Assembly: GCF_018991925.1 (NCBI RefSeq)
Contig: NW_024735503.1
Coordinates: 4,314,579 to 4,378,578 of the forward strand
Length of the DNA stretch: 64,000 bases
Source: Homarus americanus
Lineage: Eukaryota > Arthropoda > Malacostraca > Decapoda > Nephropidae
Reading direction: 5' to 3'
The notes under the pieces are model-generated. The model had not been told where the DNA came from. It saw only the letters and a list, made by a program, of their open reading frames with translations, and ran no database searches. Shown here in pieces: positions 32,425 through 39,431 of the stretch. Each line of letters opens with the position of its first letter. Position 1 is the stretch's first letter. Both the position numbers and the translations under genes were made by a program.

Positions 32425-32966
32425 CTACCACCTCGGCTGCTTCCCCGCGCCTCTTCGTTTACTCTCGCCGGAGTTCATACTGAAGGAAGACTCGACGGTG
32501 CTGCCTCCAGCCACTATGGGGCCGCCAGGGACACTAAGGAGGACAGGCATGTTAGTGGTGTGAGAGAGAGAGAGAGAGAGAGAGAGAGAGATATGAGAAT
32601 GGCATAACAACAATAAACATGAATAAAGAAAAATAGGACAGTAACATGAATGAAGAATAAGAAGACACTCCCTGATAGTCTCGGCTGTCACCAGAACTCA
32701 TGCTATAGACTCACTGTTTTGGGTTGAGGATCTGGATGTCCGAGTCGTATTTCTTGAAGTGGTGACCTGGACCTGCAAACGCCGCCGCCGCCTCCACCAG
32801 GGCCACCAGCAGCGTCACCAGTGCCACCACCTTCTCTGTGGCCAAACACACGCACACATCTTTACAACAAATAAATAAAGCGATGCAAAATGAACCTACA
32901 GATGCATATAGTGTATGTACAGTCCAAGTTACGGTGAGTGTTTTACTTACTTGTTGTTGAGGCCAT
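32425..32966 (-). CDS. Predicted secreted 81-residue peptide, paralogue 1 (three exons)
   Basis: The CDS is complement(join 32425-32533, 32715-32835, 32951-32966): 246 nt, 81 residues plus TAG. Splice sites are canonical: donors GTAAGT (32945-32950) and GTGAGT (32709-32714), acceptors ending CCACAG and CTCCTTAG. Residues 1-26 (MASTTKKVVALVTLLVALVE then AAAAFA) are a textbook signal peptide with cleavage expected after Ala26. The predicted mature chain has no Cys, starts GPGHHFKKYDSDIQILNP and ends SGESKRRGAGKQPRW, with a possible furin/PC site at KRR. Intron phases are 1 and 2, identical to the gene at 38319-39431. I recognise no family; a neuropeptide, antimicrobial or cuticle-related peptide is possible. 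A variant polyadenylation hexamer ATTAAA lies at complement 32347-32352. The start is chosen from the signal peptide and matching paralogue structure. Confidence 0.75.
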
Positions 32967-33029
32967 CTGTTGAGTGCGTCAACTGGAGATCCTCGCCCCT
33001 CACTGCTGCGCCTCACACCTCACCTCCCT

Positions 33030-33035
33030 CTTATA
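33030..33035 (-). promoter_or_regulatory. TATA box of peptide gene 1
   Basis: TATAAG within GGGCATATAAGAGGG on the minus strand. A CAGTG initiator-like site lies with its A at 33004, 31 bp downstream, and the ATG is 38 bp further on. Confidence 0.6.
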
Positions 33036-33319
33036 TGCCCTCGCCAGCGTTTAGTGGAGAGCCTCGCCCTTCACTGATCCGCCTCGTCTCTCACTGCCCT
33101 GCCTCACACCTCATAACCAATTGTTATTACTATGTTGTGTTCTTGTGTAAGTTAAGGATGAGTTGTCCTCCCTAACACACGTCAGCATCAGCCCACAACA
33201 ACACCATGATCACTGTAGTGGCGACACACAGCTGCTGAAGGAGAAATAAGCCAGGCGGTAAAATAGACATCACGTTTACCTCCTGCGTGTGTGTGTGTGT
33301 ATTCGCACACAGGTTGGTG

Positions 33320-38202: not shown

Positions 38203-38213
38203 GGCCAGGTAGG

Positions 38214-38230
38214 TATATATATATATATAA
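38214..38230 (+). promoter_or_regulatory. TATA-rich promoter of peptide gene 2
   Basis: TATATATATATATATAA lies about 30-35 bp upstream of an initiator-like TCCAGTTC near 38256. The untranslated first exon then runs to the donor at 38320. Confidence 0.55.
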
Positions 38231-38318
38231 CAGGTGAGGTGTGTTAACGGGTCATTCCAGTTCATCTTCACCCAGGGGTCGCCTCATACAGACATACACA
38301 CACACACACCTCCCTACA

Positions 38319-39431
38319 AGTAAGTTGCCACTAACATGGACTGCTTATAAACACTCTGGTAAATGTGCGGTAGGTGCCACATCCTCTGAAGTAACAATAA
38401 TTAATATGAAACACGAGGTAGTGGATAATTAAAGGTGTTGCAGTACTCATAGCGTTTCAGACAGGTGTCTCGGTACATCGATACCCTTAATTAAGAACAG
38501 GTATGATAATGTTAGGTAGTTTGTGTGCAGTATAGAACTCTACCTGTAGTCAGGGCGTACAACAGCCTGCAGCAGAACCAACCTTTCTTGTTTGCTGGTC
38601 GTTCTGAAGGGAGTGTTATTATTATTTTATTATTATTATTATTATTATTATTATTATTATTATTATTATTATTATTATTATTATTATTATTATTATTATT
38701 ATTATTATTATTATTATTATTATTATTATTGTTGAGGGTAAAGTCCACCTGGTGTTATAAAAGGTGAGTCATGTGATATTGTGACTATGCTATCATGTAT
38801 AGACTCCAGGTATGAGGTAAAATTATAGGTAAGATAATTTAGGAGGAGAGAAGTAATATGTCTTCTCATTCACTTACTCACTGACTGTCTCATTCCTTCA
38901 ACAGTGGCTGGAGCGAGAGTGTTGGTGATGGTGGTGATGGTGTTGGTAATGGTGATGGTGGTGGGGTTACACGTTCACAAAGTCGACAATCAAATCCATA
39001 TCTCCGATACAGGAAAGTACGTCATCCACACACACACACACACACACACACACACATACACACACACACACACACAGTCAATCCTCACTTCACCTTATAG
39101 CACCTGTCCTTACCTGCCACAGCTTCCCCCTACCTTCGTTAATTAGCCAGCTTACCCCCCTCCCATCACCCCAGTGCCTTTCCGTGGATTATTTTGTCAA
39201 TATAAACTCTCTCTCTCTCTCTCTCTCTCTCTCTCTCTCTCTCTCTCTCTCTCTCAGACTTGACCTAAACCCCCTTCTCCCTGTCTCTCCTTCGTCAGAT
39301 CCCTCGCCCATCGCCATAAAGGAGGACGGGGAGGTAAAGGTGACGACGTTCAGATCGATTTCTCCATTGAGTCTGGCCAGGGGAATCCATTTCGTGGAGG
39401 TGACCCCTTTAGCCACATCGCTCTAGGATAA
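38319..39431 (+). CDS. Predicted secreted 81-residue peptide, paralogue 2 (split ATG)
   Basis: The CDS is join(38319, 38905-39016, 39299-39431): 246 nt, 81 residues plus TAA. Only the A of the start codon lies in exon 1; intron 1 splits the ATG (CTACAA|GTAAGT ... CAACAG|TGGCTGG), giving the good context ACAATGG. Intron 2 uses GTACGT and CGTCAG. Phases are 1 and 2, as in the gene at 32425-32966, and total length is identical. Residues 1-22 are a signal peptide (MAGARVLVMVVMVLVMVMVV then GL). The remaining chain is His/Gly rich (VHKVDNQIHISDTGKSL, AHRHKGGRGGKGDD) and ends GNPFRGGDPFSHIALG. No Cys. VHKVDNQIHISDTGK aligns with FKKYDSDIQILNPKH of paralogue 1, and FSIESGQ with FSMNSGE. Function unknown. 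The short exon and weak GTACGT donor are the less certain parts. Confidence 0.65.
38617..38731. repeat. (ATT)n microsatellite in intron 1 of peptide gene 2
   Basis: About 38 ATT units with one early break. It reads as poly-Leu or poly-Asn in other frames, which are not genes. Confidence 0.97.
39029..39255. repeat. (CA)n and (CT)n microsatellites in intron 2 of peptide gene 2
   Basis: (CA)n at 39029-39076 with one TA, and (CT)n at 39209-39255. The CT tract lies close to the acceptor at 39298 and could act as an extended polypyrimidine tract. Confidence 0.95.

Follow-up and report, generated by a model that had tools for sequence, protein, structure and literature searches.

Arthropods commonly produce orphan secreted peptides. 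Crustins carry a WAP domain with conserved disulphide-forming cysteines, and the Gly-rich antimicrobial families of insects include attacin, coleoptericin and gloverin. In the parts of two sources that were available (PMC9409781, PMC2866484), crustins, anti-lipopolysaccharide factors (ALFs), penaeidins and defensins are described as cysteine-dependent, and homarin, a 4-6 kDa peptide of Homarus americanus, is described as similar to the helical temporins of frogs. Armadillidins, the Gly-rich antimicrobial peptides of terrestrial isopods, contain GGGX repeats, according to the available part of the source (PMC7017220). Sparamosin of the mud crab is made as a 76-aa precursor with a 22-aa signal and a 54-aa mature peptide and was reported to lack a database match, as far as the available part of its description goes (PMC8531530).

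Here we analysed a stretch of 64,000 nt of H. americanus DNA (the window, throughout) that holds two small divergent genes, gene A and gene B. We propose, with a probability of roughly 60% and from sequence comparison, that they are an old divergent paralogue pair forming a small family of orphan secreted peptides. One member is annotated without function, and the other is without a database match. The gene anatomy, the identity of gene A with an annotated protein, the common position of an intron and a common promoter element were computed directly.

Compared with the described systems, the two products would be small secreted crustacean defence peptides like the crustins, anti-lipopolysaccharide factors, penaeidins and defensins, but neither contains a single Cys. 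The Cys-based crustacean defence peptides are therefore excluded; crustin, ALF, penaeidin, defensin and scygonadin were each rejected on this ground, no Pfam family having been reported either. Attacin, coleoptericin and gloverin were also set aside, as neither product drew a Pfam profile in a filtered scan up to E 10, which very distant kinship may escape. Armadillidins are, like the products of gene A and gene B, small, Gly-containing crustacean peptides confined to one lineage, but they too are excluded because GGGX is lacking (GGG is absent from both products). Sparamosin resembles the pair in precursor layout and, in the available part of its description, in the lack of database matches, but differs in its two predicted helices (PMC8531530); the only Sparamosin sequence compared, an antigen peptide given in that part, had no evident likeness by eye to either product. 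The 4-6 kDa of homarin can be set beside the 5.9 kDa of the mature gene A peptide, a likeness of published description, as far as available, and not of sequence.

The gene models of the original prediction, two three-exon genes on opposite strands, each with a 246-nt coding sequence (81 residues plus stop), intron phases 1 and 2 and a Cys-free product, could be rebuilt exactly (Table 1). With the coding part of gene A running from 32966 to 32425 on the minus strand and that of gene B from the end of exon 1 at 38319 to 39431 on the plus strand, the head-to-head arrangement was upheld, and both products open with a hydrophobic, signal-like N-terminal stretch, in agreement with the signal peptides that had been predicted. 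The introns of gene A (GT..AG) measure 115 and 181 nt, and the second is in phase 2, as is the second intron of gene B. In gene B, the start codon itself is split by intron 1 (A/TG), such that the first ATG arises by splicing; a second donor at 38369 leads to a variant start. The first donor of gene B (CAA/GTAAGT) scores 5.78, and its exon 2 has an acceptor of 5.03 and a donor of 2.61. Donor 1 and both acceptors of gene B lie within the top 2% of sites in the window, where 151 of 8572 GT sites score at least 5 as donors and 68 of 9992 AG sites score at least 5 as acceptors; donor 2 (2.61) is ordinary. The acceptors of gene A are weak (0.89 and 1.40), and its donors (5.78 and 2.75) are similar to those of gene B. 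At all four donors the last exon base is A and not the usual G. Downstream of gene A, ATTAAA variants of the possible poly(A) signal also occur ∼72 and ∼95 nt past the stop, and neither AATAAA nor ATTAAA was found in the 1.3 kb downstream of gene B.

Table 1. Positions in the window of the features of gene A, gene B and the sequence between them.
Feature	Position	Strand	Remarks
Gene A, AATAAA, possible poly(A) signal	32134..32139	-	∼285 nt beyond the stop
Gene A, exon 3, coding part and stop	32425..32533	-	Rebuilt model; acceptor 1.40
Gene A, exon 2 (121 nt), predicted signal peptide and first mature segment	32715..32835	-	Acceptor 0.89, donor 2.75
Gene A, first coding exon (16 nt)	32951..32966	-	Rebuilt model; donor CAA/GTAAGT, score 5.78
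Gene A, predicted 5′ UTR from initiator A, ATG-free	32967..33004	-	Promoter scan
Gene A, 12-mer AGGTGAGGTGTG, about -21 to -10	33014..33025	-	Between TATA and initiator
Gene A, TATA box TATAAG	33030..33035	-	31 nt before initiator A at 33004
LINE (non-LTR retrotransposon), broken, in the interval separating the promoters	34443..37740	+	Pfam pieces; outer ends not fixed
Gene B, TATA box TATATA, inside a TA run from 38214	38224..38229	+	30 nt before initiator A at 38254
Gene B, 12-mer AGGTGAGGTGTG, about -22 to -11	38232..38243	+	Between TATA and initiator
Gene B, predicted exon 1 (66 nt), ATG-free 5′ UTR and A of start codon	38254..38319	+	
Gene B, exon 2 (112 nt), TG of start codon, predicted signal peptide and first mature segment	38905..39016	+	
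Gene B, exon 3 and stop	39299..39431	+	Rebuilt model; acceptor 5.53
Gene B, alternative exon 3, other frame, 93-aa product	39258..39431	+	Second good acceptor at 39258

Both genes had been put forward as unrecognised. The product of gene A, however, is identical at 81 of 81 residues to Hamer_G017297, a hypothetical protein of Homarus americanus, and this annotation of the gene itself was its only match among the 5 candidates of the protein database search. Gene A is thus not wholly unrecognised, being already annotated, without function or domain, and the identity lends its exon model support that is independent of the original prediction. For the product of gene B, a database that does contain the gene A annotation offered 127 candidates, none of which matched at E up to 10, nor was there any match among 1098 candidates for a joined query directed at longer annotated models. 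Distant relatives can escape this search because it requires shared 5-residue words. Gene B, for which the description as unrecognised stands in these searches, is the probable diverged paralogue of Hamer_G017297.

Other collections gave a similar picture. Pfam reported no families for either product at E up to 10, cuticle domains included (the HMMER filters drop most matches above E ∼0.1, and very distant kinship may escape such a scan), and no relative of either product was reported among PDB sequences. The 51 pattern stretches obtained by comparing viral contigs with the Hamer_G017297 protein included no relative, and among the matches listed in 56 short-match records (E up to 1) of a phage collection against the gene A region, none covered 80% of the query. 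Within the window, none of the best 40 tblastn matches of each gene was convincing as an additional copy; apart from the matches between the two genes, the lowest E-values were 0.75 (gene A) and 0.061 (gene B, low-complexity). In the part of the literature covered, no paper describing gene A or gene B was found with the peptide words or the Hamer_G017297 identifier, and papers on lobster or crustacean peptides and genomes named neither gene as far as their text was available. The proposal of a new family therefore stands in a limited sense, namely that the present searches gave no match.

Kinship of the two genes had been argued mainly from gene shape, on the view that identical length and phases are hard to get by chance. 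We enumerated all three-exon signal-bearing models on both strands of the real window and of 100 block-shuffled windows, with the main splice thresholds set just under the scores of gene A and gene B themselves. At these thresholds the real window yielded 11 models at 3 loci (gene A, gene B and a third, running from 40548 on the minus strand), and the shuffled windows yielded a mean of 0.51 loci, with at least one locus in 39 of 100, at least two loci in 10 of 100 and a phase (1,2) model in 9 of 100. Looser thresholds gave 43 real models versus a shuffled mean of 19.3, a locus being present in 90 and a phase (1,2) model in 24 of the 100 shuffles. A strict acceptor threshold, which gene B passes and gene A fails, retained gene B and the 40548 locus in the real window and any locus at all in 1 of 100 shuffles. 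An earlier, narrower enumeration found 6 models in the real window, every one with phases (1,2), and 6 shuffles together gave 2. Because the thresholds were derived from gene A and gene B, the enumeration is supportive and not decisive. By itself the shape of the genes is no more than moderately unusual. Since shuffled windows also produce secreted phase (1,2) models, equal coding length and equal phases offer weak evidence when taken by themselves; they are not as telling as had been claimed, and we dropped them as the main proof of kinship.

The third locus (40548-39518, minus strand) yields three-exon signal-bearing models with phases 0,2 and serine-rich products; one of these models also passes the strict splice thresholds, but the locus is probably due to chance.

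Such counts raise the possibility that gene A is real and gene B a chance model or a decayed, unexpressed copy, for the shape of gene B arises in shuffles and also occurs at a third locus of the window. We consider this improbable. Although no annotated protein matches gene B, its acceptors are far stronger than those of the annotated gene A and its donors about equal; and although it has two competing acceptors and no near poly(A) signal, its frame stays open across three exons, with a splice-made first ATG after an ATG-free leader, and both its splice register and its promoter element match those of gene A.

The exon-2 register and the promoter coincidences are stronger evidence for a common origin than gene shape. 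When the mature parts of the two exon-2 products were slid along each other without gaps, superimposing the intron-2 codons gave a score of 17 with BLOSUM62, against −1 for the next best of 17 registers, and a score of 25 against 8 with BLOSUM45. Intron 2 accordingly has a homologous position and the same phase in both genes (register 0, best of 17), and the pairing of FKKYDSDIQIL with VHKVDNQIHIS, proposed earlier from the letters, was confirmed as the register that superimposes this intron. In fixed-register shuffles of a 16-residue stretch picked by the analyst, p was 0.0026 (BLOSUM62) and 0.0018 (BLOSUM45). Among 548 null secreted models, taken from shuffled windows with looser splice thresholds and in any phase, 1 attained the local score between the mature parts, 49 with BLOSUM45, and 0 attained that of the full-length products.

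Shuffling of the peptides themselves gave more modest results, the local score being reached, depending on the matrix, in 30 to 85 of 3000 shuffles of the mature peptides, in 87 to 149 of 3000 for exon 2 alone and in 50 to 84 of 3000 for exon 3 alone. Aligned globally, the mature parts gave a weak score that 115 to 238 of every 3000 shuffles equalled. Of the two gene B exon-3 frames compared with gene A, only that from 39299 resembles it, because its score was reached by 102 of 3000 shuffles as compared with 1382 of 3000 (chance level) for the frame from 39258. Pairwise BLASTP of the two products gave an E-value of 3e-4, which is inflated by the signal peptides because no low-complexity or composition correction was applied, and tblastn at the scale of the window placed the exon matches between the two genes at E 6.5 and 8.8, amid noise. 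At the DNA level the loci have common words at chance level only, a 12-mer being the joint best (E 0.14).

This 12-mer, AGGTGAGGTGTG, lies in the core promoters. A TATA-type promoter had been predicted at each gene and both were found, that of gene A only with a widened pattern, TATAAG not being covered by the stricter TATAWA. The initiator of gene A is the variant GCAGT, its A sitting 38 nt before the ATG. The two promoter copies of AGGTGAGGTGTG, at nearly equal spacing to TATA and initiator, are the only exact copies on either strand of the window; allowing one mismatch adds a third at 43434-43445, with 0.84 matches in all expected by chance. In the promoter comparison, a common word of 12 arose in 0 of 5000 shuffles, a figure that overstates the surprise because the word was spotted after inspection. 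Among the other TATA sites of the window, with the TA run of gene B excluded, the best shared word was 7. A TATA box with an initiator 28-33 nt further on occurs at 5 places in the window (6 rows, two of them overlapping at gene B), 2 of which directly precede gene A and gene B; shuffled windows contained 2.55 such rows on average and 9 at most. Alignment of the promoters over 120-130 nt was moderate (25 of 1000 shuffles as good). We regard the core-promoter word as the most unusual and the most testable part of the pair.

Within 600 nt upstream of gene A and gene B, the full kappaB consensus (GGGRNYYYCC) was absent; looser kappaB matches numbered 1 at gene A and 3 at gene B. No GATA sites were found upstream of either gene. 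A compact bidirectional promoter, with starts within ∼1 kb, was rejected, as the predicted starts (33004 and 38254) are 5,250 nt apart with LINE sequence between them.

With no likeness of the DNA beyond the 12-mer and words at chance level, and with a mature local similarity that is modest when taken alone (1 to 3% of shuffles), one might suppose that these are unrelated secreted-peptide genes, their promoter element common by convergence or by movement of a fragment and their protein likeness fortuitous. Transfer of a promoter, however, fails to explain why the exon-2 products match at precisely the register where intron 2 of one gene overlies that of the other, with identical phase, and we judge this reading very unlikely. 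The idea of an old duplicate is thus retained in part: a common origin is probable from the exon-2 register, the 1 of 548 null models and the promoter 12-mer, but the argument from length and phases is weakened, and the DNA, apart from the 12-mer, adds only words at chance level.

The sequence between the two promoters is occupied by the broken LINE of Table 1, in which a reverse transcriptase piece is clear (RVT_1, E 1.6e-14) and the endonuclease matches (Exo_endo_phos_2, E 1.1e-4; Exo_endo_phos, E 5.5e-4) both fall under the curated cut-offs. A repeat of its 3′ end lies at 31165-31659, with 84.7% identity over the longer piece. A search for its target-site duplication found only GT repeats and 8 to 9-base words. 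Removal of the LINE would bring the starts of gene A and gene B closer, to a distance that these data do not fix.

Several other features of the window deserve mention. A second LINE at 27638-29605 (minus strand) has an open frame of 655 residues, in which an endonuclease domain is accompanied by sequence weakly matching the beginning of a reverse transcriptase. Two segments flanking the gene pair in the same orientation (31919-32011 and 40647-40741; 81% alike) carry short CCTAA/CTAAC arrays; the telomere repeat of arthropods is usually TTAGG. At 15136-23576 lies an 8.4-kb tandem array whose 33-bp unit keeps frames open for hundreds of residues on both strands, so that gene callers may report spurious proteins there. 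On the minus strand, 57201-61657 holds long open frames that carry Ser/Gly repeats (SGSGGTFGSTTGSG) and three Cys-bearing units of the type YG.LPPC..G.VRC, which by eye resemble one another; no Pfam match was found in the two frames scanned. These frames may encode a secreted protein built of repeats and bearing clip-like knots.

The mature parts depend on the assumed signal cleavage, which gives 55 residues for gene A and 60 for gene B. On this basis the mature gene A peptide has a pI of 9.99, a charge of +4, Gly at 9 of 55 positions and a mass of 5.9 kDa, and that of gene B has a charge of +0.3, 6 His and Gly at 11 of 60 positions. By eye, alternating-hydrophobic segments are present in exon 2 (DIQIL in gene A, NQIHIS in gene B) and in exon 3 (TVESSFSMNS and DVQIDFSIES), with a cationic stretch nearby, and these segments could be beta strands. 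Such strand structure is a conjecture, because AlphaFold2, applied to gene A only, gave nothing beyond a single helix over the signal (residues 3-25) at low confidence (mean pLDDT 60.9). Dibasic pairs occur in gene A at 6, 33, 71 and 72 and in gene B not at all; a neuropeptide prohormone was rejected for this reason, and a prohormone function shared by the pair is disfavoured.

We tentatively suggest that the single most likely role of the peptides is that of an extracellular host-defence effector, in haemolymph or at a surface. Cuticle, matrix, reproductive and hormone-like roles are together about as likely, and TATA-type promoters also drive tissue-specific secretory genes. A real paralogous pair whose secretions are structural or serve signalling (in the cuticle or extracellular matrix, from the reproductive tract, or hormone-like), a view that overlaps the core of our preferred explanation and differs in function alone, we rate at rather less than even odds. 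None of the computed features is specific to immunity, the nearly uncharged gene B product is a poor fit to a classical cationic antimicrobial peptide, and the full kappaB consensus is absent upstream, but no Pfam family, including the cuticle domains, was reported for either product in the filtered HMMER scan, and the dibasic sites outside the signal region (33, 71 and 72) are found in gene A only, so prohormone-style processing is not common to the pair.

Returning to the paralogue pair with a defence role, we suggest that one ancestral gene gave rise to gene A and gene B, which came to be divergently oriented and are now separated by a LINE. Each would be transcribed from a TATA/initiator core promoter carrying the common 12-bp element, and splicing of the short first exon would yield the 81-residue precursor. 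Cleavage of the putative signal peptide would then release a Cys-free, Gly-containing mature peptide of ∼55-60 residues, which would be secreted and may act outside the cell as a haemolymph or surface defence effector. Transcription, secretion, cleavage sites, strand structure and function of the pair are the inferred parts of this account. A bolder version, in which gene A and gene B are the first members of a new decapod family of secreted effectors lacking Cys, co-expressed by means of TATA, the AGGTGAGGTGTG word at its fixed place and the initiator, we consider doubtful.

Genome annotation easily misses small secreted peptides, and the present case suggests that intron position together with a common promoter word can expose a paralogue that annotation has passed over and that has diverged beyond the reach of similarity searches. 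Lobster immunity is of both scientific and commercial interest. A tissue atlas of the European lobster exists, according to the available part of its description (PMC13286009), in which two concrete products and one promoter element are now testable. If the proposal of a co-expressed effector family is true, the AGGTGAGGTGTG element could reveal further hidden members of the family in lobster genomes.
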